Shown: one piece after another, positions 25,755-46,275 of the stretch | How positions within the stretch are numbered: the first letter of the stretch is position 1 | How the letters are laid out: the number at the start of each line of letters is the position of its first letter | Origin: Nitrosospira multiformis | GTDB lineage: Bacteria > Pseudomonadota > Gammaproteobacteria > Burkholderiales > Nitrosomonadaceae | Reading direction: 5' to 3' | DNA: 64,000 nt | Assembly (NCBI RefSeq): GCF_900103165.1 | Contig: NZ_FNKY01000001.1 | Span: forward strand, 248,001 to 312,000 | Program-made: the position numbers and the translations under genes | The notes under the pieces: model-generated | Seen by the model: only the letters and a program-made list of their open reading frames with translations | Database searches by the model: none | What the model was told of the DNA's origin: nothing

Positions 25755-27029
25755 TCATCGATCAAGTCGATATTGGAGCAATAGTGCATCAACAAAGTAC
25801 TTGGTTGCCCAGTTCGGGTAGCCCGCCCGCATATATCCACCAAACAACGGGAATGAGCCAGGAATTGCGCCATTGAGCGCAGCGTTCGGCGATGCCGTCT
25901 CCTGCAGTGCTTTCAAAGCATCCACTAATGTATTCGCCGCTTTACTGTACTTGCTCTCACCGGTTAATTCACTAAGACGGTAGCAAACGATTGCTATCTG
26001 GGCATTACCGGTGAGGCACGACGATAATGCTCCTGGCTCCCAATCCGCATAGTAGCGTCCCGCCAGCAATCCATGCCGGTCGACGCGAGCAACCAGCGGG
26101 TCGACGCCTATCCTTGCAGCAGCCACGAAGTCCGGACGTTGGGCTAACACCCCAACTTCCAGCACGCCCTGCAGCGTATAGCCTATTGTGTGGGTGAGCG
26201 GTGCAGCTGACTGCGTCAGACAGTTGTGCGCAAACCAGCCGTTGGATCGCTGCTGGCGCAATGCCGCCTCGATCACCTTGATCGCGGCGTCCTGGTAAAG
26301 ACGCTCTCCCACGATTTCTCCGAACCGATACATCGACCAGGCACACAAACAAGTATATGTCTTAATCTCGCCAGCGCTGACATAAGCGCCGTTGGTGCGA
26401 AAATAATTATTCTCGTCCAAGTCTCCTACGAGGAAATCGGCAGCGCGCCGCCCCGCTTCCAGGAACTCTCCAGCACCCGTCGCACGAAATGCGGAACACC
26501 AGCCATCGAGCACCATACCGGTATTGAACGTCGCGGCGGTCTGCTGAGCCGGGGGACAAACCGGCCCGCCCTGAACTGCCCCCGATGGCATTTGAATTGC
26601 GATCTCCCAGCGGGCCATCGTCAACGCCGCATCCCGCGCGACGAGGTCATCGAAACATTCGGCATACGCGAGTAACGAGGTAATGATGTAGCCTGTCGTT
26701 TCGGGATAGGACGGCATCCATGCAGCCAACTCGCCGCGGCATGGAAAGTAGCCGAGAGACACTCCTCCGTCCCGCGCTGCCTGCTGCGCGTGCAATAACC
26801 ATTTTATCGCCGTACGAGTTCGCAGCGCTGTTTCACCTTGCTCCGGGCATGTCGTCAGCGTCAGGTAGCGCCAATAGTCCCGCAGCACGTGCTGCCGGAA
26901 CACTCGATTGTCCGGTTGGAGCAGCCGCGCAATCTCCCCCGCCACAACGCTGGCATCCCAATACTTTTGACGCAATCCCGCGCCGGAATATTTGTCGCGC
27001 GCAATGCGCGCAATTGAAGTAAATTTCAC
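25755..27029 (-). CDS. Putative (alpha/alpha)6-toroid (six-hairpin glycosidase-like) protein
   Basis: I cannot name the family with certainty. The 424-residue sequence is a succession of paired helices with Trp/Tyr/Gly-rich loops (SYPETTGYIITSLLAYAECF, FNTGMVLDGWCSAFRATG, AHTIGYT-like HTIGYTLQGV), the style of GH88/GH105, glucuronyl epimerase C-terminal or lanthionine-cyclase toroids. No signal peptide. Between EPS genes, a role in trimming or epimerising the polysaccharide is plausible but unproven. It ends LLLQYRLDR. A 253-base gap separates it from the ligase gene. Confidence 0.55.
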   Translation of the reverse strand: MKFTSIARIARDKYSGAGLRQKYWDASVVAGEIARLLQPDNRVFRQHVLRDYWRYLTLTTCPEQGETALRTRTAIKWLLHAQQAARDGGVSLGYFPCRGELAAWMPSYPETTGYIITSLLAYAECFDDLVARDAALTMARWEIAIQMPSGAVQGGPVCPPAQQTAATFNTGMVLDGWCSAFRATGAGEFLEAGRRAADFLVGDLDENNYFRTNGAYVSAGEIKTYTCLCAWSMYRFGEIVGERLYQDAAIKVIEAALRQQRSNGWFAHNCLTQSAAPLTHTIGYTLQGVLEVGVLAQRPDFVAAARIGVDPLVARVDRHGLLAGRYYADWEPGALSSCLTGNAQIAIVCYRLSELTGESKYSKAANTLVDALKALQETASPNAALNGAIPGSFPLFGGYMRAGYPNWATKYFVDALLLQYRLDR

Positions 27030-27251: not shown

Positions 27252-28226
27252 ATGACTGGAACATTCGTGGTAGAACCAGGCACAACATTACTAGCCAGCG
27301 AGCTCGCGGCCTTGAATCCAAGGAATCCGTTTTATACGCTCCAATATGCTGACTTTCGCAATGGGCAAGGATTTACGCCATGGATCCTGATCGGCGATAA
27401 CGCCCACTCAAAAGTATGCTGTCCTGCCTTCATGAAAACCGGGCGGCTGAGATGCTCACTGGAGATACCCTCCGTGCCCGATGTTTCGGTAAATGAACCC
27501 TTCTGGCAAGCGTTAATGGACTTCTGTCACCAGAACGGCATCTCCGATCTCTCGGTAAACAGTTTTTGCTCACCAGGTGGTGGGATTCCACAATTGAATT
27601 ATGAAAAAAGCCGCAAGCCTCGATGGGAATATGTACTGGATCTGAAGCATCCCGATACCTTGACGAAAATGCGTAAAGGGCATTCTTATAGTGTCAAACG
27701 CGCACGAAAGATCGGGATAGAAATGCGGCGAACGCGTGATCTTGAGGCTGTTGAGGCCCACGCCCGATTGATCGGCGTTTCCATGCAGCGGAGAAAAGAT
27801 CGGGGGGAGAACGTGACAACGTCAGTAGAGACAAATAACCTGCTACGATTGATCGAATCAGGCGCAGGAGAGATTTTTCAAGCCGTTCTGGCAGGGCAGG
27901 TTATTTCTTCCAATGTCATACTGATAGCAGAAAAGGCCGGTTACAATCATACTCAGGGTACCAATCCGGAAGGGATGGGTTATGGGGCCGCCCATTTTCT
28001 CATTCATGAAATCGCCTGTGCGCTTCGCGATGAAGGAAAAGAAGTATTCAACCTGGGGGGAACCGATGATCCCGATCCAGAATCCGGTTTGAGGAAATTC
28101 AAGACCGGCTTTGGACCAGTGGCCGAAATCGAGCTCGAGTCAGCAACATTTGAACCCGGGAATTTGGGCGCCTCTCTTCTACGGCGAGTCATGTCCGGCG
28201 GACTGCGAGGACGCAAATTTGATTAA
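27252..28226 (+). CDS. GNAT/FemAB-like acyltransferase 1
   Basis: A 324-residue protein with a tandem GNAT-like (BioF2/Acetyltransf_6, FemAB-related) fold. The late signature VFNLGGTDDPDPESGLRKFK (about 270-289) is the conserved NLGG...GL..FK segment of this group, and MRKGHSYSVKRARKIGIEMR lies where FemAB proteins place their Lys/Arg-rich helix. Relatives transfer acyl or aminoacyl groups to surface polymers; one subfamily is named 'FemAB family XrtA/PEP-CTERM-associated'. It is first of three transferase-like genes in a row, overlapping the second. Confidence 0.72.
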   Translation: MTGTFVVEPGTTLLASELAALNPRNPFYTLQYADFRNGQGFTPWILIGDNAHSKVCCPAFMKTGRLRCSLEIPSVPDVSVNEPFWQALMDFCHQNGISDLSVNSFCSPGGGIPQLNYEKSRKPRWEYVLDLKHPDTLTKMRKGHSYSVKRARKIGIEMRRTRDLEAVEAHARLIGVSMQRRKDRGENVTTSVETNNLLRLIESGAGEIFQAVLAGQVISSNVILIAEKAGYNHTQGTNPEGMGYGAAHFLIHEIACALRDEGKEVFNLGGTDDPDPESGLRKFKTGFGPVAEIELESATFEPGNLGASLLRRVMSGGLRGRKFD

Positions 28227-34495: not shown

Positions 34496-35848
34496 TTAAC
34501 CCGGAGCAACCCTGCTCACCACATAGCGGAACTTCCCTGATTTTTCTGCCGGAATTTCCGTGACTTCCTCGACTGCTATCCTCACCCCTTGTCCGAGCCG
34601 GGCTTTGAACCCTGACTTGATTTTCTCGACAAGTTCCGGGGAGAGCCCCTCCTCAGAAACCGTTAGTACGCGGGTAGAATCCAGGCTTTCCTGAATGATC
34701 TTAAAGGCCAGAATCTGCGGCAAATCGCGCAGGATATAAATCAGGGCCAGACCATGCATCACTGTACCATTCCGGGCAACTAGAAAATCAGTACTACGGC
34801 CCTGGATTTCCCTGAGTAAAGGAAGCCCTCGCCCGCAGGTGCAGGGCTTACTATCCAATACACCGATGTCGCCAGTACGATAGCGGATGAAAGGGAAGTC
34901 TCGGGTGGCAAGGTGGGTCACGACGATCTCCCCCGCCTCGCCATAAGGTAAAGATGCGCCCTGTTGATCCACGATCTCGACGATAATGTCCTCGGCGGTG
35001 ATATGCATCCCGCCCTGGGGACATTCATGTGCGATAAAACCCGCATCGCGGCCGCCATAGCCGTTCGCCACCGGGCAACCAAAAATTTTACCGATCTGTT
35101 GACGCTGTTCATCGTAGAGCCGTTCCGACGTCACAAACGCAACGCGGATGCCCAGGTCATCCATACGCTGTCCCTTTGCCGCGGCATGACGGGCGATATG
35201 AGATAGGGCGGAGGGGTAACCAAAGAGCATTTTTGGCCGCACGCTCCGAATCTCATCGAGGAATTGATCAAGTTTTTGCGCCGACATCTCGAAGGCAGGA
35301 AGTAGTCTTGTCCTGAGCAGCCGGTCGCGCAGGGCACGTACCCCATCCTGCGCGCCGAGTTCGATGGGCGAACCCCAGACCACGATCTCCGGGTCGCCGA
35401 TATCCACTCCCCACCAGCGGGTGGCGCGCCATTTCGCCGCGACGTCGTGACTCACACGTTCTTTGCCAATGTAAAAGATCAGCGGATCGCCGCTGGAGCC
35501 GCCCGTATTGAAACGGGCAAGGTGCCGGGCATGCTCCGACTTGAGCGCCTCGACATTGTGGCGAATGATGGTTTTGTCGAGAAGCGGCAGGCGGGCAAGA
35601 TCGGATAGCGAATGGACATCTCGCGCTTTAAAGCCAATCTTCGTGAAGAGCTCGCGATAGTAGGGTACGTGTGCTTCGACGTGCGTAAGCAGCCGGCACA
35701 GCCTGGAAAGCCGCAGCGCTTTCAGGCGCTTGTCTTCCCACCACTGGGAGACTTCCATCTGCTCACGCACCGTAACACTGTCGTGCTTCTTGAAACGCTC
35801 GTGGAGGGGGAAAAACAGCCCCGAGATCAATGATGTGTATAAGCCCAT
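34496..35848 (-). CDS. PaaK/CapK-like AMP-forming ligase
   Basis: At 450 residues, from the phenylacetate-CoA ligase/coenzyme F390 synthetase family often found in capsule loci (CapK). The AMP-binding P-loop is FNTGGSSGDPLIFY (about 112-125), with later NGYGGRDAGFIAHECP (adenine and zinc/Cys region) and FIRYRTGDIGVLD. It would activate a carboxylate as an adenylate, and some relatives work without CoA transfer. It is last gene of the minus operon starting at 43822, eight bases from the glycosyltransferase. Confidence 0.85.
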   Translation of the reverse strand: MGLYTSLISGLFFPLHERFKKHDSVTVREQMEVSQWWEDKRLKALRLSRLCRLLTHVEAHVPYYRELFTKIGFKARDVHSLSDLARLPLLDKTIIRHNVEALKSEHARHLARFNTGGSSGDPLIFYIGKERVSHDVAAKWRATRWWGVDIGDPEIVVWGSPIELGAQDGVRALRDRLLRTRLLPAFEMSAQKLDQFLDEIRSVRPKMLFGYPSALSHIARHAAAKGQRMDDLGIRVAFVTSERLYDEQRQQIGKIFGCPVANGYGGRDAGFIAHECPQGGMHITAEDIIVEIVDQQGASLPYGEAGEIVVTHLATRDFPFIRYRTGDIGVLDSKPCTCGRGLPLLREIQGRSTDFLVARNGTVMHGLALIYILRDLPQILAFKIIQESLDSTRVLTVSEEGLSPELVEKIKSGFKARLGQGVRIAVEEVTEIPAEKSGKFRYVVSRVAPG

Positions 35849-36977: not shown

Positions 36978-38187
36978 TCTGAGTCCTTGCGAACAAGTGG
37001 ACCGTATACATCTTTATAACGAGCCACGCTGCCTAGCCAAGTTCGCTGTGTCTCCACAAAGTTTCGGGCCGCGGCCCGAAGACCGGGCCACAGGTCCGGT
37101 CTGTCAAGAAGGTTCAAAACCTTGGCTGCTAAGGCGTGAGGGGCGCCTGCCTTGAAAAGGATGCCGGTTTTTCCGTCTTCGATCAGTTCGAGATGGCCCC
37201 CCACATCCGAAGCCACGACAAGCCGGCCTTGCGCCATGGCTTCAAGCGGCTTGAGCGGTGTTACAAGATCAGTGAGCCGCATCCGAAGCCGTGGGTAGAC
37301 GAGTACATCGACCAAATTGTAATAACGCTGCACTTGATCATGAGGAACACGGCCGACAAAGATTACCTTGTCTCCCAGATCCAGCTGCATGGCAAGCGCC
37401 TTCAATTCCTGTTCCTGGGGACCGCCGCCAACCAGCAGGATGCGAATGTCCGGATTGCTGGAAAGCATCTCCGGAAGAGCCCGCAACAGGATATTCAGGC
37501 CTTCATAAGCATAGAAAGAGCCGATGAAACCGAGCAGCAGCTTGCCATCAAGGCCGAGGTCTTTGGCGAGTTGCAAATCGGGAGAATCGTTCAGGCTAAA
37601 ATTTTCAATTTTACGGCATTGGGTATGACAGTAACCTTTCCCGGCGCGATACCCCGCCCAAGGATGTCGCTCCGCAGCCCTTCGCAGATGGTGGTGACAG
37701 CATCAACATGCTTCAGTGCGTAACTCTCCAATCCTCTGGTAAGGCGATATCGAATGCCCCATTCGCGGCTGGTACCGTGGTCCACTGCAGCGTCTTCCCA
37801 GAAAGCCCTGATTTCATAGACGACTGGAATACCCCTACGCCGACCCACCCGCAAAGCGGGTATGGCATTCAGGACAGGGGAGTGAGCGTGCAGAATATCC
37901 GGCTTGACGATTTCAGCTACCTCATTCAACCGGTGAGTCAGACGATCGATGACGGCAGTCTGGTTCAGGACGGGCAGTTTGGACGTGAGACCGATCGCAG
38001 GTGGAGTGCGATAAAAATGCCATCCATCGGCATCCTCTTCAAGCACTCCGCAATTTCCCTGCTTCGGCCCTGTCAGATGGAAGGTTTCCCACCCCAGCGC
38101 ACGCTGTTCCTTGAGAATCGACAAAGTACGAAAAGTATAGCCACTATGCAGTGGAAGGGAATGATCGAGGATATGAAGAATTCGCAT
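36974..38187 (-). pseudogene. Exosortase A-type glycosyltransferase split by a one-base frameshift
   Basis: Two adjacent minus-strand frames together make one GT-B glycosyltransferase of about 400 residues. The 5' part (38187-37591) starts MRILHILDHSLPLHSGYTFR and runs through HAHSPVLNAIPALRVG to VIPNAV. The 3' part (from about 37605 down) continues QLAKDLGLDGKLLLGFIGSF to the end. Adding one base to the A-run (T-run 37609-37612 on the plus strand) restores NIENFSLNDSPD between them. The family is the 'glycosyltransferase, exosortase A system-associated' GT4 group. It may be a real mutation, a phase-variable A-run, or a sequencing error. Confidence 0.85.
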
Positions 38188-38253
38188 TAATATTCTTAGA
38201 TGGAAACGTTTTATTTTTAATCAGACTCAGTAAAACGCGGATCATAACTCCAT

Positions 38254-39402
38254 CTAAAGCCCCAGCCAGCGCGCAATAATGTTGCGCTGCATCTCCGAAG
38301 TTCCTGAATAAATGGTACTTCCGATTGCGTCACGTAGCGCACGCTCGACTTCGTACTCAGCCATATAACCGTAACCCCCATGAATCTGAACAGTATCGAG
38401 TGCTGTCCTGACGAGAGATTCACTCACAAACAACTTGGTGATCGCGGCATCCAACGATGCGCTCTTTACATTATCAAGACGCCACGAGGCCTGATAGGTC
38501 AGCAGACGTGCGGCCTCAAGCTGTACCTTCATATCAGCAATCTTGTGCGCTACCGCCTGGAATTTTCCGATTGTCTGGCCAAATTGGGAGCGTCTGCGCG
38601 CACGTGCGATCGACGTTTCCAGAAGACGCTCCATTGTGCCAACATGGGCCGCCACAAGCAGGATGCGCTCCCAGTCCATTGCCGTCGCAAATACGTGTGA
38701 ACTTGCACCGACAGTACCCAATACTGAGGCTTGTGAAACATACACATTCTCAAGCCTCAGCCCGCTTACCTGCGCGGTACGCAAACCCAATTTTTCGAAT
38801 TTCTTATCTGCAGAGAAGCCGGGCGTATCTTTCTCAACGAGGAAAGCAGTGGTGCCTCCGTGAAAACCTTTTTGTGGATCGGTTACCGCAAATATGATCG
38901 CAACATCCCCCACAGGTCCATTTGAAACAAAAGCCTTGATCCCGTTAATACGCCAGCCATCGCCATCTCGCTCCGCACGCGTACTCATCGCAAATGGATC
39001 AGAGCCCGCGTTGGGTTCGGTTATGGCATGCATGCCAATCAAGCGGCCATCGCAGAGCCCAGGGAGGTAGCGCTGCTTCTGCTCGTCGGTACCATGTTTC
39101 GACAGCGGGACTACACAAGCAAGGACGTGCGCACAAATGGAAAATACCAGGCCACTATCGTGACAACCGTAACCCAACGCCTCCAAACCCATCGCACATG
39201 ATAAGGCATCAAAGTTGCCACCGCCGTACATACGATCAGCGGGAAGACCCTGAATCCCAGCCTCGGCACATTTGCGCCAAAGATCGCGTGAAAACGCCTG
39301 ATCAGCGTCACGGGCAATGACATCGTCGTTCAACTCTCGTCGCGCGAATTTGACGATCCCGTCGCGCAAACTTTTTTGTTCCGGGGTAATGGAAAAATCC
39401 AT
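38254..39402 (-). CDS. Acyl-CoA dehydrogenase family protein, PltE-like
   Basis: FAD-dependent dehydrogenase of 382 residues. It shows AITEPNAGSDP (FAD/substrate loop), RRRSQFGQTIGKFQAVAHKI, and IHGGYGYMAEYEVERALRD with the late Arg-Asp and SGTSEMQRNIIAR. The arrangement LGYGCHDSGLVFSICAHVLA and MDWERILLVAAHVGTMERLL are as in prolyl-carrier-protein dehydrogenases (PltE/CloN3 type). Start ATG at 39402 shares its A with the ligase stop (TAATG). Likely substrate is an acyl group on the neighbouring carrier protein rather than a fatty acyl-CoA. This is inference from operon and family resemblance. Confidence 0.85.
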   Translation of the reverse strand: MDFSITPEQKSLRDGIVKFARRELNDDVIARDADQAFSRDLWRKCAEAGIQGLPADRMYGGGNFDALSCAMGLEALGYGCHDSGLVFSICAHVLACVVPLSKHGTDEQKQRYLPGLCDGRLIGMHAITEPNAGSDPFAMSTRAERDGDGWRINGIKAFVSNGPVGDVAIIFAVTDPQKGFHGGTTAFLVEKDTPGFSADKKFEKLGLRTAQVSGLRLENVYVSQASVLGTVGASSHVFATAMDWERILLVAAHVGTMERLLETSIARARRRSQFGQTIGKFQAVAHKIADMKVQLEAARLLTYQASWRLDNVKSASLDAAITKLFVSESLVRTALDTVQIHGGYGYMAEYEVERALRDAIGSTIYSGTSEMQRNIIARWLGL

Positions 39403-40961
39403 TAAGACATCTCCTTCAGACATTGGTAGTCGATTTTGTCGGTGGAGGTTTTGGGCAATACTTCACACCAGACGAATTGATCTGGAATCATGTAGAGCGG
39501 CAAGTTTTCAGAACAAAAACGCTTTAATTCAATGATCGATGGATGCTTTGTCTCGCGACAACTCAGAAAAGCCTTGATCCTGACTCCCGCCTCTTCATCG
39601 CTAATTGCGACCACAGCGGCCTCTTTGACCAACGCGTGACGGTACAATCCAGCCTCGATTTCTCCAAGTTCGACGCGATAACCCCGACGCTTGACCATAC
39701 GATCCCGCCTCCCCTGGTAAATATAGTTGCCGTCCTCCGCTTCAACGACGACATCTCCGGTCCGGTAGAAGCGATCCGAACTATCGGCCAGGAAGGCATG
39801 GGATGTTTGTTCATCCAGCGACCAGTAGCCTCTCATGACGCCACTTCCACTGATGCAAAGTTCCCCCGCCACGCCAAGCGGTACTTCACGCCCACTCTCA
39901 TCGACAACTTTTCCTGCCAGGTGGGCACAAACCTTGCCAATAGGAAAGGGAACCGTGCGTTCTTCCGGGATGGGTAAAGACAATTCGTAAGATGTACATA
40001 CGTTGGTCTCGGTCGGACCATACAGATTGAAATACCTGGGCTTTGGCAATAGCGTTGTCAAAGTTCGTAAATGCCTGACAGGAAAAACCTCTCCTGCGAA
40101 CAACACCAGACGAAGGGCTGAATAATCCCGATGCGCAAGATTTCCGTACTGTGCCAGCAAGCTGAGAATAGACGGCGCGGAATACCAACATGTAATTCTT
40201 TGCTCGGCAATAAGGGGCGCCAAACGGACAGGATCTTTGCCAATTTCTTCAGCCACCAATACCAGGGCGGCGCCGTGTTTTAATGGCAGATAAATATCAA
40301 GGATGGAGAGGTCGAAATGGAAAGGCGCATGAGAGGAAAAGCGATCGGTTTCTACCGGTTCAAACACGCTGGAGCACCAGTCGACGAAACTCACTGCATT
40401 CTCGTGAGTCAACATAACGCCCTTGGGTTTGCCTGTCGAACCGGACGTATAGAGAATATAGGCCAGGTCATCGGACTCCGAAGCCACGGTATCCATTACA
40501 GCCGGATACTGTGAGCCCGCGCGATCCAGTGCCTGGTTCAGCCCTTCTCCACCGCCAGTGCGTTGAACAAGAAAAAATGGGGGGACCGAACCCAATCGCT
40601 GCAATTCGTCCCGAAGACATGCCTCAAAGCGATGCTCCGTAAAAATAAGCTTTACCGTGCAATTATGCATGATAAAGGCATTACGTGCCGGCGGCGCACC
40701 TGGATCCACTGGAACATATACCCCGCCAGCCTTGAGAATTCCGTAAATGATTGCGATCGTATCGATCGACTTGCGCATGTATATACCGACACGGTCGCCG
40801 ATCTGCACGTCATTATTGTAGAGGTTATCCCGCACACGATCAGAGAGTGCTGCGAGTTCCCGATAGGTAACGCTTCCCGCGCCGGGCTCAATCACCGCCG
40901 TGCGCTCGGGGTAGCGCTGAACAGCTTGTATGAGGAATTGATGCAAAGCGCAATGTGACAT
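39402..40961 (-). CDS. AMP-forming ligase, amino-acid-type adenylation enzyme (PltF/exosortase-ligase-like)
   Basis: At 519 residues, ANL superfamily. Core motifs: A3 YILYTSGSTGKPKGV, A4 FHFDLSILDIY (its Asp is the usual alpha-amino anchor of amino-acid-activating enzymes), A5 NLYGPTETNVC, A7 YRTGD, A8 GRRDRMVKRRGYRVELGEIE, A10 Lys in TSTDKIDY. It resembles stand-alone prolyl-AMP ligases (PltF, RedM, CloN4) and the 'acyl-CoA ligase, exosortase A-associated' group. The latter usually has a PLP decarboxylase beside it, absent here; an acyl-CoA dehydrogenase takes that place. The carrier protein is 12 bases upstream. Confidence 0.85.
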   Translation of the reverse strand: MSHCALHQFLIQAVQRYPERTAVIEPGAGSVTYRELAALSDRVRDNLYNNDVQIGDRVGIYMRKSIDTIAIIYGILKAGGVYVPVDPGAPPARNAFIMHNCTVKLIFTEHRFEACLRDELQRLGSVPPFFLVQRTGGGEGLNQALDRAGSQYPAVMDTVASESDDLAYILYTSGSTGKPKGVMLTHENAVSFVDWCSSVFEPVETDRFSSHAPFHFDLSILDIYLPLKHGAALVLVAEEIGKDPVRLAPLIAEQRITCWYSAPSILSLLAQYGNLAHRDYSALRLVLFAGEVFPVRHLRTLTTLLPKPRYFNLYGPTETNVCTSYELSLPIPEERTVPFPIGKVCAHLAGKVVDESGREVPLGVAGELCISGSGVMRGYWSLDEQTSHAFLADSSDRFYRTGDVVVEAEDGNYIYQGRRDRMVKRRGYRVELGEIEAGLYRHALVKEAAVVAISDEEAGVRIKAFLSCRETKHPSIIELKRFCSENLPLYMIPDQFVWCEVLPKTSTDKIDYQCLKEMS

Positions 40962-40973
40962 GACGGTAAGCGC

Positions 40974-41225
40974 TTAGGATTGCTTCGAGAGGATAAGCTG
41001 TGTAATCGAAGCAATGGTATCGAGATACTCCGGGTCGGTTTCGTGCGCCTCCACTTTTATGCCGAATTGTTCTTCGATGAACAGCACCAGCTTGATCGTT
41101 GCAATGGAATCAAGTACGCCGCCTGTAATAAGAGGTGTTGTATCCGTCAGTTCGTTGGGATCTTCACCGGGAAGGAATTCCTTGAGAATAAACTCTTTTA
41201 CGGCAGATTGTATATCCTGGGTCAT
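40974..41225 (-). CDS. Acyl/peptidyl carrier protein 1
   Basis: At 83 residues, four-helix carrier fold. Phosphopantetheine attachment Ser lies in GGVLDSIATIKLV (about 42), before helix II, with an acidic recognition helix. It is encoded between the MBOAT-type gene and the ligase, so it is the natural acceptor of the ligase's acyl-adenylate. It is separate from fatty-acid AcpP, which is not seen in the window. Confidence 0.92.
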   Translation of the reverse strand: MTQDIQSAVKEFILKEFLPGEDPNELTDTTPLITGGVLDSIATIKLVLFIEEQFGIKVEAHETDPEYLDTIASITQLILSKQS

Positions 41226-41281
41226 TTTCTTACCTCCTATCGTACGGCGATTAAGATGTCGGGATGAAATCCATGTAGGCG

Positions 41282-43822
41282 TCAGTGTTTCAACGCGTTC
41301 CTGGGGCTATTGAATATTACGTCGCGCTTCTTGCGCAGTTCATCGTACAACCGCGATGCTATTAACGTATGGCCAAGCACATTCGGGTGGTCATCCCACT
41401 CCGCGAGACGGATGGTGGTGATGTCCTGTCCGCTGTATACATCGGCCAGATTGATAATGATAAAACCAGCTTTCTCTGCCATGCTCAGGGTCTCCGGGGT
41501 TTCCTCCTGCCATGTTCCCTCTCTGACCTGAGGCAGAAAAATGAATACCGGCAAGGCGCCATTTTCTCGCGATCGTTCGACAATACGATGGTATGTCCAG
41601 GAAAGAATTTCATTGCTGTAAGGGTTGATTCGCTTCAGTGCGGCCGTTTCGTCCATATCCCGTGTTAATCCGGCCCGGGCGACAATCTCCCGTAAAGGTT
41701 CGAAAGGAATAACGACATTCTTTTGCGTCGCTTCAACAAGATACCTTGTTGCTCGCGATATCTCACGTCCCGTGGCAATATAAAAAATCGCGTTCGGTTC
41801 AAATTCGAGCGCTTTCTCGAGCGAAACAAGCTGCTGCAACGGCTGATAGCCCTGAACACCAAAATTGAGAATCTCATAATTCGCATAGAGATTGTCCTCG
41901 CGCTTCAGGCGATCCTCCACCAGCGCTTCGAATGTCTGCCCATCTGCCACCCCCCAACCCATCACTGAGGATGCGCCCAGCATTGCAATACGGTAAGTAT
42001 TTGGCGGGGGTTTACGCTCATAATCCTGATCACGCATTCCCCAACGATTGATACTGATCACCCCATAGTTCGTATCCAGGACAACAGATGGCACCATTTC
42101 CGACTGGGCAAAGTCGCTGGTGAAACGCTTCAGTCCGGCATTGCCATCAAGCCAGGTTTGAGGTTTATTCGTATAAACCTCCCATAGCTGCGAATTGAAG
42201 CGATCGACTGAGAGCAGATTTTCATAGTAGCCTCTTTCAAGGTTGGCGGTATCCAGACGGCTAAGCCGGGCGGATCGCAACGAATGCACCATAGTTGCCA
42301 CTTCAGCGCCAAGCCGTGTATGCACGGCTTCTATGCTCACGCCCACCAGGACAAACATCGCAGCCACCATAGCAGCCCTCGCTCGAATCCACTCCCGGTC
42401 CACACCCTCCGTTGAGCGAGTATTGCGAATTGTGCTGCCTTCAATACTACCCAGTACGATAACTACTAATATAATACCCGGGAAGATTAATGTATCGGCA
42501 GTCATCGGGCCTTCTAATGCGGACCATAATGAAAACCAGTCGGACAACGACTCGGCCGTCCAGAAAGACCACAGTACGCAAATAAACCAGAATGTGGCAA
42601 AAGATTTGAAAGTGAGCACGCCGAGGCTGCGCCACGTCTGCTTTGTCTTGCCAAGACTGCGGCTACGGCCGTACTTGAGTTCATAAAGCGCATTGAGCAC
42701 AACCAGCACGCCAAGAATTGCCCAGAACAGGATATCTTGCAAAACCCACAGCATTGTGCCGCGTAACCAGAACCATTGATACGCATGTAAAAACCACGTC
42801 AGCATGAATACATATAGTGTCGCAACCACCATAGCCTTCGTCGTGCCCAGCGCACGCAGCCTGAATACCGCCGGATAATAAAAGATCTTCTGCATGAAAT
42901 CTTTCCAATAAATATTTATGCGCCGCCAGAAATCGGTAAAGCTGGAGGCCAATAAATATCGATTGTGCGTTTCCGGAAGACGAAAACCAAACAGGTATAA
43001 CATGCCAATTATCAAATGAAAAAGGCCGGATACTCTTAGATACAATAAAAAGTTTGCCACGAGATATTGAATCAGTTGCGCAGGACCGGTTACTTCCGAC
43101 GGGGCCAGCGTAAGGTGGTAATAGACAAAACGATACAGAAGCAAGTGAATGACGCCACGCACTATCCAGTCGATACCAGTCTGATAAATGCGATAGGCAT
43201 CGTCATCGTAATAATTTCGGCGAAAGGTTTTGTAATCAATGACCGGGAAAAGTGGGAAGCATACATTCGGCAACATGAAGAAATAGGATAATGTTTGCAC
43301 CGGCGATGCTGGAGTCTTATCGTGTTGCAATTCGTAGATATAGACGATTAACCGGAACATGAACATTGAGCCAAGTATCGGCCATACCGCATCGGCTACC
43401 GGTCCATCAAGCCACTTTGCGCGCCACGCCACCAGAAGGGCCACTACGGCAAGAATCAGAATACCGCGTAACCTGAATGAGACCGGCAAATGACAGATGC
43501 CGATAAGTATCAGGCCTATTGTGATAAGCGACACACCATTGGCGATACCCAGTGTGGTAACAATTCCAACAAAGGAAAGCAGAAGGAAGAACGATAAGCG
43601 ATGACGCAACGGAAGCAAAGCGTGTATTGCAAAACCGCTAAATGCCAGCAGCGCAAGGCGTAGAAACGCTGCGCTTTCAATCTGGAACTGTCGCAACAAA
43701 AGAAGGACTATGCCTAGTTGAAAAAGAATAAGTACATATTCCTTAATACCTATGCGTCCACTCGCGAATGCCGCATTCTCATGCCGAGACCCTATCTTAG
43801 TAACGATTGTGCTCATGCCCAT
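41282..43822 (-). CDS. MBOAT-like O-acyltransferase fused to an SGNH hydrolase domain
   Basis: At 846 residues. The first ~480 are polytopic. SFTDFWRRINIYWKDFMQKI (about 290-309) and FLHAYQWFWLRG with the conserved histidine match MBOAT (AlgI/PatA) membrane O-acyltransferases. After a TM near 490-510, the periplasmic part has SGNH block I YRIAMLGASSVMGWG (about 600-614; Ser in place of the GDS form), and the Asp-His pair in DDHPNVLGH near the end. In typical systems acyl transfer through the membrane (AlgI) and periplasmic transfer or hydrolysis (AlgJ/X, PatB) are separate proteins. It likely adds an acyl group to the EPS, and may take it from the carrier protein encoded next. Confidence 0.75.
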   Translation of the reverse strand: MGMSTIVTKIGSRHENAAFASGRIGIKEYVLILFQLGIVLLLLRQFQIESAAFLRLALLAFSGFAIHALLPLRHRLSFFLLLSFVGIVTTLGIANGVSLITIGLILIGICHLPVSFRLRGILILAVVALLVAWRAKWLDGPVADAVWPILGSMFMFRLIVYIYELQHDKTPASPVQTLSYFFMLPNVCFPLFPVIDYKTFRRNYYDDDAYRIYQTGIDWIVRGVIHLLLYRFVYYHLTLAPSEVTGPAQLIQYLVANFLLYLRVSGLFHLIIGMLYLFGFRLPETHNRYLLASSFTDFWRRINIYWKDFMQKIFYYPAVFRLRALGTTKAMVVATLYVFMLTWFLHAYQWFWLRGTMLWVLQDILFWAILGVLVVLNALYELKYGRSRSLGKTKQTWRSLGVLTFKSFATFWFICVLWSFWTAESLSDWFSLWSALEGPMTADTLIFPGIILVVIVLGSIEGSTIRNTRSTEGVDREWIRARAAMVAAMFVLVGVSIEAVHTRLGAEVATMVHSLRSARLSRLDTANLERGYYENLLSVDRFNSQLWEVYTNKPQTWLDGNAGLKRFTSDFAQSEMVPSVVLDTNYGVISINRWGMRDQDYERKPPPNTYRIAMLGASSVMGWGVADGQTFEALVEDRLKREDNLYANYEILNFGVQGYQPLQQLVSLEKALEFEPNAIFYIATGREISRATRYLVEATQKNVVIPFEPLREIVARAGLTRDMDETAALKRINPYSNEILSWTYHRIVERSRENGALPVFIFLPQVREGTWQEETPETLSMAEKAGFIIINLADVYSGQDITTIRLAEWDDHPNVLGHTLIASRLYDELRKKRDVIFNSPRNALKH

Positions 43823-44261
43823 GCTCAGAAAAAAGGTTTTTTTCGCTCGTCCTTCCGTCCAACGCTACACTCAACAGCATAATAGGGGAGATCGAGGACT
43901 GGCCGGAAACACTGATGGCTATACACAGCCTGAGACCATTTGCTTTGAAACGCCGAACAAGACAGGGATCGACGTCGTCGTAGAATACTTCTGCGCGCGG
44001 CCTTCGGGCCATGATTTTGTACTTCATCGCTATATCCTATTCCGCAGCTGAGCGGCAATCAGATCAGGCAGCATACTTTGTTAATTGTCCCGCCTTCACA
44101 GCCTGCTCCGCGGAAAATCCTCCAGCAATGGCTAGCATCCGTTATTTTTGCACTATAGCATACGGGCGGAAGACACTTATATCTCTTGGTGCATACCTTC
44201 ATCCACTACCATAAGCTCCCGCATCCATTTTCAATGGGCGCGCTTTAAGTATGCCGCTGTT
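43823..44261. other. Intergenic, one doubtful small ORF
   Basis: No convincing gene. A minus-strand frame from 44027 to 43797 (76 codons, start MKYKIMARRPRAEVFYDDVD) has AGGATA about nine bases before its ATG, but it runs over the start of the MBOAT gene and resembles no family I know. The region must hold the promoter for the 43822-34496 minus operon; I see no clear boxes. Confidence 0.45.
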
Positions 44262-45383
44262 TCAATTCCGGGAGTCGGGGGCATGCTTGAATGTCCAATA
44301 AGAATTCAGGAAATAATTGATGAGCATCGCGGGGGCAATGCCCACAAGCTGGTGAATCTCTGGGGGTGTCGCGGGAAACAGTATTGACAGCACCACGAAC
44401 GTGGAATAGCTTACCACCAGAGATACGAGAGATACCATATTGAATTTCAGACCCTTTATGCGTAAGTGGTCGCGGGATTTGCGCTGGCGAAAGGTCCAGT
44501 AGTTGTTCAGCAAGAAATTCGTGATGATCGACGCCTCGATCGAAATAGGTGAAGCAAGATACTTATTGACGTTCGCCTGAAGGAGCAGCGTGAACACACC
44601 AAGATTCACGATTACGCCGGACAATCCCACTACGGCAAACTTGATGAAAGTTTTCGAGCTATGCAACCGGATCCACCAGGCATTCAGGATAAACTCGATA
44701 ATGTCCGAGATTCCAAGTTTGGATTCCCCTTCGGTCCGGTCAACAAAATCCACCGGAACTTCTTTAACAATCGCACCTAGAGACACCGCCTTATGAAGCA
44801 ATGCCACCTGAAAGGCGTAGCCCTGGACACGAAGATCCTCAAATATGATTCTCCTTAACAGTGATGTCTTGATCGCCCGAAATCCCGCAGTACAATCGTG
44901 AATCTTGTAGACGCCCGCGATATAACGCCCAACAATATTTCCCCCCAGGGAATTCATGCGGCGCAGCACCCCCCATTCCTTCGGGATCGATCCACCTTTC
45001 ACATAGCGGCTTCCGATTACAAAATCGGCTCCCTGATCAAGAGCGGCCATTAATCGAGGCACATCTTCCGGTTTGTGAGAGAAATCTGCATCCATCTCGA
45101 ACACGACATCGGCCTGGAGCTTATCCATTGCATGAATCATCCCACGGATATAAGCCGCTCCAAGCCCAGCCTTCTGCCCCATCAACAAATGCACGTTAGA
45201 ATAAGTCACTTGTTTCTCCCGCACGACATCCGCGGTTCCGTCCGGCGAAGTGTCGTCTACCACCAGAATGTGCATGTCATGTGGCATATGTCGAAACTGC
45301 ACTTGTAATGCATCGATTATTTTACCGATGTTATCTCGCTCGTTATACGTCGGCAAAATCATCACTACGTTCAGATTCGCCAT
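44262..45383 (-). CDS. Dolichyl-phosphate mannosyltransferase-like GT2 fused to a GtrA domain
   Basis: At 373 residues. The N-terminal 235 are a polyprenol-phosphate glycosyltransferase (ILPTYNERDNIGKI, DDTSPDGTADVV, EMDADFSHKPEDVPRL with DxD, and TAGFRAIKTSLL). The C-terminal ~130 residues are a GtrA-like four-helix membrane domain (KFAVVGLSGVIVNLGVFTLL; a mid-domain NYWTFR and ending NSYWTFKHAP). Such fusions load a sugar onto undecaprenyl phosphate and may flip it, feeding GT-C transferases. It is monocistronic, 440 bases from the MBOAT gene. Confidence 0.9.
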   Translation of the reverse strand: MANLNVVMILPTYNERDNIGKIIDALQVQFRHMPHDMHILVVDDTSPDGTADVVREKQVTYSNVHLLMGQKAGLGAAYIRGMIHAMDKLQADVVFEMDADFSHKPEDVPRLMAALDQGADFVIGSRYVKGGSIPKEWGVLRRMNSLGGNIVGRYIAGVYKIHDCTAGFRAIKTSLLRRIIFEDLRVQGYAFQVALLHKAVSLGAIVKEVPVDFVDRTEGESKLGISDIIEFILNAWWIRLHSSKTFIKFAVVGLSGVIVNLGVFTLLLQANVNKYLASPISIEASIITNFLLNNYWTFRQRKSRDHLRIKGLKFNMVSLVSLVVSYSTFVVLSILFPATPPEIHQLVGIAPAMLINYFLNSYWTFKHAPDSRN

Positions 45384-46275
45384 AGGGTCTGCGCCATAAG
45401 GGTCAATTTTTTAGTTCGTGGATTGGGGTTTGAACTACGACAATTAACGGTAGTTTGATGTAAGAACCGTGTTCCCAAAGCATATTTCAAACACGGGTTT
45501 GAATCCTGGAAGTTTGCGCAGCCTATGGTTAAGACGATTCACTCCGTTACACTTGGACTTGGGTAACACCAGAATACGGGATCAACTGATCGAATGTGGC
45601 TCTAATCGGATACCACTGATGATTGCTGTCATTCGATCTGAGGAATAACGTCATAACCAAGCGTTAGTTTGTTAATATAACATAACACTATGTGACAATC
45701 GTTACCTGCTTTGCCTGTGCCCACATGCTCCACCGAAGCTTCCGCATAGGTTCGAGAAAACCGGATAGCTCGGTCTCGAACTCCACTTGGGTGATATTCT
45801 CGCCGTCCAGAGAACGCCACAGCTAACAGCGTTCCGTATTTGGGTAGTTGAATCCAGAAAGGCAGGTGATAGCGATTTTAATTCCCAACACTCCCAGCCA
45901 CGAAAACAAGGAATGGAATTCGACACGGAAAGTAAAAATACTGAAACGATCCGCCCATAATGCGCTGGAAAGTGAAGTCACTTTTCACTTTTACTTAATA
46001 CTTCATACGACTTATAGTACTATTAGTAAATTTTATTAATGTGCCAAGCGCGCACCAAAATCAGAACAGGGCAAAATCTAATTTCTAGCGAAATAATCGC
46101 AAGTGTTTCCGGATAAAAGCGGCGTTACTCCAAGTACCGAAACGGCGGAATTTACCGGAATGTACGGGAAAAGTTCCAAAGTCAGCTGGAAGAGCCCTCG
46201 CTCGATCCCCGCATTCGACCTACCTGTTCAATAACCGCAGTAACCGGCATGGCAGATTAAAACTACTAAACCTCG
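45384..46275. other. 890-base gene-poor region with a coding-like remnant
   Basis: No intact gene. On the minus strand, 45822-45688 is open without a start codon and reads WRSLDGENITQVEFETELSG followed by a Trp/Lys/Arg-rich helix (EPMRKLRWSMWAQAKQ) and a stop; the codon usage looks real but a TAG precedes it, so this is probably a gene fragment. The remainder is AT-rich, with no IS ends recognised. It separates two EPS transcription units and must carry the promoter of the plus operon starting at 46276. Confidence 0.45.

Follow-up and report, generated by a model that had tools for sequence, protein, structure and literature searches.

The window analysed here, a stretch of 64,000 nucleotides from the ammonia oxidiser Nitrosospira multiformis, carries a run of four minus-strand genes. 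The run begins with a gene for a putative MBOAT-SGNH fusion acyltransferase of 846 residues (41282-43822), continues with genes for an 83-residue carrier protein (40974-41225) and a free-standing adenylation ligase of 519 residues (39402-40961), and ends with one for a 382-residue protein of the acyl-CoA dehydrogenase fold, a predicted prolyl-carrier dehydrogenase (38254-39402). All four genes point in the same direction. The fusion gene ends 56 bases before the carrier gene, the carrier and ligase genes are 12 bases apart, and the ligase and dehydrogenase genes overlap by TAATG within a TTAATGG junction. The dehydrogenase start was set at a conserved MDFSI; the mechanically called open reading frame (ORF) is 7 residues longer, up to 39423. 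An earlier note had described the last three genes as a tightly coupled trio. They do lie on the minus strand with the overlap and the 12-base gap that it reported, and both motifs that it quoted, FHFDLSILDIY in the ligase and MDWERILLVAAHVGTMERLL in the dehydrogenase, are present. The three genes are real, but the unit is longer than the note had it, as the upstream fusion gene, which it did not tie in, belongs to it as well. The trio itself is beyond chance, given the 423 bits to the PigA model, the 374 bits to AA-adenyl-dom and the recurrent gene order in relatives. Scans for sigma-70 promoters and terminators gave no excess over shuffled sequence.

The dehydrogenase scores 423 bits against the PigA model and 403 against that of RedW, a prolyl-carrier dehydrogenase, compared with 296 for the best acyl-CoA enzyme. 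Both scores lie below the cut-offs of the named models (500 and 650, respectively), and thus, the protein appears to be related to the PigA and RedW equivalogs but to fall outside them. Among solved structures, it comes closest to prolyl-carrier dehydrogenases, first AnaB (4irn; E 9e-121, 406 bits) and then 5zw0 (301 bits). The protein has a Glu base at the IVD-like position, and Glu245, within DWER, aligns with a 5zw0 glutamate that the variant 6af6 replaces by alanine. Ser366, within an IYSGTSE motif, stands at what we take to be the position of the base in SCAD and MCAD.

Relatives of the system were collected by scanning genome contigs with six dehydrogenases; the best 80 of 248 relatives, plus five class-level loci, made up a set of 85 loci. 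In 47 of these, as in the window, the ligase gene lies upstream of the dehydrogenase gene on the same strand (type A), in 28 it lies downstream (type B), and 10 have neither arrangement. A dehydrogenase tree of 92 rows included the window and 46 of the 47 type A loci; L053, L032 and L061 were left out as partial or duplicate. The type A dehydrogenases and three unclassified rows form one group (98/88), apart from the type B sequences and AnaB. AnaB, 5zw0 and 6cxt are all found on the type B side, the latter two on long branches that drew a program warning. Six ordinary acyl-CoA dehydrogenases of the relatives form a separate group (100/99).

Multiple comparisons place the ligase among amino acid-activating enzymes. 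It scores 374.2 bits against AA-adenyl-dom, and of the solved relatives with a per-domain score, PltF (6o6e_B) comes first, with 336 bits in one domain. Chains of LgrA outrank PltF only by summed domains, the best single LgrA domain giving 224 bits, while 8xjz_C, for which there is no per-domain score, stands just above PltF with 337 bits in two stretches. According to the excerpts of PMC11253843, entry 6O6E contains PltF with L-Pro. The ligase falls short of the cut-offs of both DltA models, with 285.4 of 559.85 bits for TIGR01734 and 291.8 of 476 for PRK04813. Its pocket letters, DLLYLALVCK, were read at what we take to be the GrsA positions. They agree with those that we assume for free-standing prolyl ligases, and their proline meaning is likewise our assumption. 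The same string occurs exactly in 25 of 45 type A relatives, and DLFYLALVCK in 18 of 25 type B relatives, both counts being made without ligases shorter than 300 residues (two of type A and three of type B). No paper on the string DLLYLALVCK was found in the openly licensed literature. From homology, the substrate of the ligase is predicted to be L-proline.

The carrier protein has its phosphopantetheine serine, Ser40, in GGVLDSI, and just passes the Pfam PP-binding cut-off (21 bits versus 20.8). It comes close to the NCBIfam model NF052616, 'ACP for OlsHI' (123.7 bits, cut-off 130), and gives 32.6 bits against the DltC model, under the cut-off of 68. Its closest solved chains are the carrier of 6cxt, the peptidyl carriers 2my5 and 2my6, and PltL (2n5h and 6o6e_E), with D-alanyl carriers ranking after the peptidyl carriers as weaker matches. 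The partner chain in 6cxt is also a near relative of the window dehydrogenase. All three proteins of the trio point to the oxidation of proline on a carrier, a reading supported by sequence. The kinship with PltF/PltL/PltE-type enzymes that had been proposed for the trio is borne out by profiles and by solved-structure relatives and, for the dehydrogenase alone, by the tree as well.

The N-terminal half of the 846-residue protein is supported as an MBOAT homologue by a remote match only: hhalign aligned it over 297 columns with a profile of 13 PF03062 MBOATs (probability 95.6, E 1.2e-8), and H346 fell on the histidine that is invariant in the 13 ordinary MBOATs. Taken alone, the window protein matches neither a Pfam MBOAT nor a Pfam SGNH model. 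For the C-terminal half, Lipase_GDSL_2 is matched by 20 of 33 fusion homologues at E <= 0.1 (best 2.4e-7), and we infer an acyltransferase role for it. Residues N303 and H346 in the MBOAT core and S618 and H812 in the SGNH domain are invariant in all 33 fusions. So is a Tyr-Tyr pair, Y532-Y533, in the linker, some 40 residues beyond the last hydrophobic peak.

The linker also differs from the end of an ordinary MBOAT. Ordinary MBOATs were found at 23 places in the relatives, and all 13 that were aligned end in F-x-Y-x-x-F. This motif is present in the linker of none of the 33 fusions, nine of which have a match inside the MBOAT core, and it is absent from the minus-strand frames of 38001-45400. 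As the excerpts of PMC12148441 describe, the tyrosine of F-x-Y-x-x-F carries the acyl group from the MBOAT to the SGNH protein in Dlt and Pat systems. Because the motif is missing from the linker and the Tyr-Tyr pair is invariant, this pair is a natural candidate for a built-in acyl-shuttle, and its conservation fits the relay through an acylated tyrosine that the same excerpts give for DltX and PatA. That the pair serves as the shuttle is a prediction.

The fusion gene is closely linked to the trio. The carrier gene lies upstream of the ligase gene in 41 of the 47 type A loci, and MBOAT and SGNH halves are found within 10.5 kb in 32 of the 38 type A loci that have at least 4600 bases upstream; both thresholds, 4600 and 10500 bases, were picked after the typical spacing was known. 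The order fusion-carrier-ligase-dehydrogenase is present in 30 of these 32, with the MBOAT match starting 4.1-4.5 kb before the dehydrogenase in 29 of the 30. The fusion is on the other side in L066 and L028, and one of the six exceptions, L026, has a fusion 8.6 kb further on. No MBOAT half is present in any of the 28 type B loci, of which 23 reach the 4600-base minimum; several type B loci bear large ORFs resembling nonribosomal peptide synthetases (NRPS). Fisher's exact test for 32 of 38 versus 0 of 23 gives p = 1e-11, with rows that are dependent through kinship. The sequences thus support both the family assignment of each of the four proteins and the linkage of their genes. That the MBOAT gene lies next to the trio by chance was considered and rejected. 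Trios of the type A group in L055, L057 and L067 consist of carrier, ligase and dehydrogenase genes without an MBOAT-SGNH gene nearby.

Broader samples give a similar picture. Among 369 class genomes, the fusion profile is matched at E 1e-40 or better in three (G000, G203 and G316), all of which have the trio. In what is apparently the same draw, six dehydrogenase matches reach E 1e-85 or better, and those of G213, G274 and G355 are of type B. In the phylum sample of 398 genomes, the fusion profile is matched only in G000 and G628, and in G628 the carrier, ligase and dehydrogenase genes lie alongside the fusion gene as two divergent pairs. Every genome with a full-length fusion, four in all, therefore carries the trio, the class and phylum samples overlapping in part. 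Fusion loci come under nine phylum labels (Pseudomonadota, Acidobacteriota, Gemmatimonadota, Planctomycetota, Bacteroidota, Hydrogenedentota, Calditrichota, Rhodothermota and Myxococcota), many of them on metagenome-assembled genomes in which binning errors are possible. Carriers of the cassette include Nitrosospira, Methylomonas, Thauera, Aromatoleum and Accumulibacter. A congener aside, the nearest tree row to the window is from Methylomonas, a member of a different family, and horizontal movement of the cassette is therefore likely.

In the window, the cassette is flanked by two genes of an exopolysaccharide (EPS) locus, both on the minus strand. A GT2-GtrA glycosyltransferase gene (44262-45383), identified by Pfam, lies 439 bases upstream of the fusion gene, and a PEP-CTERM/XrtA glycosyltransferase gene of the NCBIfam family TIGR04063 (36974-38187) lies downstream. 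The dehydrogenase is present at 87% or more in only 2 of 23 genomes of the genus, G000 and G002. In G002, the fusion, carrier and ligase are 85-89% identical and lie on a separate contig from the dehydrogenase. In G001, G015 and G022, the GT2-GtrA and TIGR04063 genes are neighbours, about 0.3-0.4 kb apart, with no cassette between them. G004 has a decayed piece of the MBOAT core (L139 1440-1640, G004:C20; 72% over 231 bases) immediately before an open TIGR04063 gene, and the gene before this piece matches no Pfam family at 1e-10 and has no strong match to the window GT2-GtrA. Since the cassette is present, absent or decayed upstream of the same TIGR04063 gene within the genus, it is an accessory unit that has, at least in part, come or gone at a single EPS locus. 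The TIGR04063 gene of the window is itself split, its two ORFs lying in separate frames, and each of the 21 other genus genomes that match it has a single open frame of 407-476 residues; the split is either real decay or a sequencing error.

Together, these results make it probable that the four genes form a Dlt-like transmembrane acylation cassette that uses a proline-derived acyl group. In such a cassette, the ligase would adenylate L-proline and load it onto the phosphopantetheine arm of the carrier, and the flavin dehydrogenase would oxidise the prolyl thioester, most likely to the pyrrole-2-carboxyl stage and possibly just to 1-pyrroline-5-carboxyl. The MBOAT half would receive the acyl group from the carrier on the cytoplasmic side of the inner membrane and pass it across via H346; DltB, according to the excerpts of PMC11035591, picks up D-alanine from its carrier on that side. 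One tyrosine of the linker pair, as its conservation would predict, may then hand the group to Ser618 of the SGNH half, which would form an ester with a hydroxyl group on some exported molecule, in the window perhaps an XrtA-type EPS. For the MBOAT transfer and the SGNH esterification, the argument is made from the linkage and from analogy with DltB/DltD and PatA/PatB.

Several findings pull against this scheme. Pfam MBOAT is matched by none of the 33 fusion homologues, and a PDB profile search with the fusion returned seven weak matches, GDSL-type among them, and no MBOAT chain. The fusion is missing from L055, L057, L059, L062 and L067 despite at least 4600 bases upstream, and L090, a type B locus, has an adjacent weak match to the SGNH half only (25%, 57 bits). 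In G002, the dehydrogenase gene is followed by GT2, methyltransferase and other genes and not by the TIGR04063 gene, so that its setting differs from that of the window. Homologues of the tested XrtA-type window proteins at 150 bits or more occur in the flanks of only four type A loci out of 47 (L038, L042, L054 and L055), a count in which 20 of the 47 loci exceed 21 kb. Among the matches listed for 91 flanking proteins, which cover 25 of 110 families, at most four fall to any one glycosyltransferase model. Finally, AnaB, the closest solved dehydrogenase, is one that we take to stop at the pyrroline.

The surroundings of the window cassette are of the XrtA type, with TIGR03097, TIGR04063, PrsT, hydrolases 1 and 2 and a MOP-flippase-like protein, as well as TviB/TviC-like sugar enzymes and RfbA. 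The flank scan covered 16 type A loci, after 51 of 142 crudely called ORFs from 17 loci, including all of those from L076, had been dropped; among the matches listed were 7 to Sulfotransfer_3, 2 to ETF, 3 to an OlsC-like hydroxylase and 2 to argB. The scarcity of glycosyltransferase and XrtA-type neighbours indicates that the acceptor may not be EPS. A pyrrole thioester might instead be made for a small molecule or glycolipid, with the MBOAT-SGNH protein acylating a lipid or other small acceptor and not a polysaccharide. Many cassettes have no polysaccharide genes of the window type in their flanks, clorobiocin-type pathways are presumed to put a pyrrole on a deoxysugar, the carrier lies near the 'ACP for OlsHI' model, and the OlsC hydroxylase model is matched by 3 of 91 flanking proteins. 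This possibility is nevertheless unlikely, if appreciable: the window cassette sits within an EPS locus of the XrtA type, TIGR04063-like glycosyltransferases (48-63%) lie near the copies in L042, L054 and L055, and neither NRPS nor polyketide synthase (PKS) genes are found among the window proteins scanned, which span about 22.5-59.7 kb. OlsH, moreover, needs no carrier protein, according to the excerpts of PMC12493201. A role of the window protein as the ornithine-lipid carrier was rejected, as NF052616 stays under its cut-off and OlsH works without a carrier in the same excerpts.

EPS as the acceptor in the window has somewhat less than an even chance. Of the earlier proposal that this locus decorates a polysaccharide, the transfer to an exported molecule gains backing from the MBOAT-SGNH gene, and the polysaccharide part is weakened by the lack of window-type EPS genes near most relatives. 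Other genes of the region are also of note. A PaaK/DVU_1553-like AMP ligase (34496-35848), which ends the same gene run and has homologues close to the cassettes of L038 (48%) and L042 (25%), possibly provides a further acylation step. A 424-residue protein with a weak GH127-like match (25755-27029) has a 56% homologue directly upstream of the carrier in L055, the locus that lacks a fusion. A FemAB/GNAT-like acyltransferase (27252-28226) in the EPS region is probably the GNAT-like gene of the earlier note.

The second alternative concerns the acyl group. The trio might stop at 1-pyrroline-5-carboxyl after a two-electron oxidation, as we take AnaB to do, in which case the decoration would be a pyrroline or an unoxidised prolyl ester. 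In favour of this, the best solved match is AnaB, with 406 bits compared with 301 for 5zw0. The tree favours neither pyrrole nor pyrroline, because AnaB, 5zw0 and 6cxt all fall on its type B side. The top NCBIfam ranks, PigA and RedW, favour the pyrrole, as do genes of the halogenase family near the cassette. Fourteen flavoprotein ORFs were found in 13 of 51 clustered loci, all of them type A (L026, L028, L034, L057, L063, L064, L067, L069, L070, L078, L102, L105 and L106), and all 14 match Pfam Trp_halogenase. Ten of these 13 loci have it within 200 bases of the dehydrogenase gene. The best NCBIfam model for the four flavoproteins scanned is CmlS, far under its cut-off. W-x-W-x-I is present in all 14 ORFs and W-x-W-x-I-P in 13, motifs that we assume to be a halogenase hallmark. 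Such genes would be expected for an electron-rich pyrrole and favour it over pyrroline, at least in those loci; none was found in the window. A product that stops at the pyrroline is thus considered improbable, and, given the four-gene acyl-transfer scheme, pyrrole is favoured as the transferred group. In Methylomonas sp. SURF-2 (L033 4827-8403), three ORFs lie between the carrier and ligase genes, the first encoding a Rieske ring-hydroxylating subunit; these possibly tailor the acyl group.

Two further readings have very little to recommend them. An ordinary acyl-CoA dehydrogenase and acyl ligase working on a fatty or branched acid would fit the Pfam matches, which are only to the generic acyl-CoA dehydrogenase and AMP-binding domains, but this was rejected as highly improbable because profile scores, the Glu base, the pocket letters and the tree all favour prolyl enzymes; in the tree, the dehydrogenase stands apart from ordinary acyl-CoA dehydrogenases, and it has Ser366 in place of a Glu at the presumed SCAD/MCAD base position. 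The earlier suggestion of a variant exosortase locus, with a dehydrogenase in place of the pyridoxal phosphate-dependent decarboxylase that accompanies the usual ligase, agrees with the XrtA-associated setting but is scarcely credible given the ligase's 252.6 bits to the exosortase-associated TIGR03098 (cut-off 592.35) versus 374.2 to AA-adenyl-dom, the cassette's own wide distribution and the strong XrtA-type homologues in the flanks of only four of the 47 type A loci. The window proteins scanned include no such decarboxylase.

In its broadest form, the proposal is of a widespread mobile system that tags surface polymers with pyrrole-2-carboxyl groups, some of them halogenated, through an MBOAT-SGNH translocase with a Tyr-Tyr shuttle, and as a whole this is about as tentative as the EPS acceptor. 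If true, it would join the pyrrole-starter carrier-protein chemistry of antibiotics with the MBOAT-SGNH acylation of envelope polymers, which in the literature searched otherwise involves D-alanine or acetyl groups. Secondary-metabolite starter chemistry would have been recruited for envelope decoration, adding an aromatic, possibly halogenated, substituent to envelopes under nine phylum labels, and the fused protein would offer a simpler model for acyl transfer across a membrane. Searches of the openly licensed literature on pyrrole in polysaccharides, on the four-gene combination and on Nitrosospira exosortase, judged from the papers listed, turned up no description of such a system.

Trios of the PltF/PltL/PltE type are known from pyoluteorin, prodigiosin and clorobiocin, and AnaC/AnaD/AnaB from anatoxin-a. 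The cassette shares with them a free-standing ligase, a carrier, a dehydrogenase of the acyl-CoA dehydrogenase fold, prolyl pocket letters and a Glu base at the same position. Unlike them, it has an MBOAT-SGNH gene, is accompanied by no NRPS or PKS gene in the part of the window scanned, and has dehydrogenases that form their own tree group. The Dlt system (DltA/DltC/DltB/DltX/DltD), which D-alanylates teichoic acid, has the same logic of ligase, carrier, MBOAT and SGNH protein. However, the cassette has a prolyl-type ligase, an added dehydrogenase, and the MBOAT and SGNH domains in one polypeptide; it has no DltX-like F-x-Y-x-x-F, and its ligase and carrier stay below the DltA and DltC cut-offs. 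PatA and PatB, as described in the excerpts of PMC12148441, likewise pair an MBOAT with an SGNH protein for the acylation of an exported polymer, but PatA uses acyl-CoA and acts with a separate SGNH partner by way of a C-terminal hexapeptide, whereas the cassette has one fused protein beside a carrier. The AT3-SGNH fusions such as OatA, from the same excerpts, resemble the cassette protein in combining a membrane acyltransferase, an SGNH domain and an internal Tyr relay in a single polypeptide, and differ from it in their membrane domain, which is AT3, where that of the cassette is MBOAT-like.

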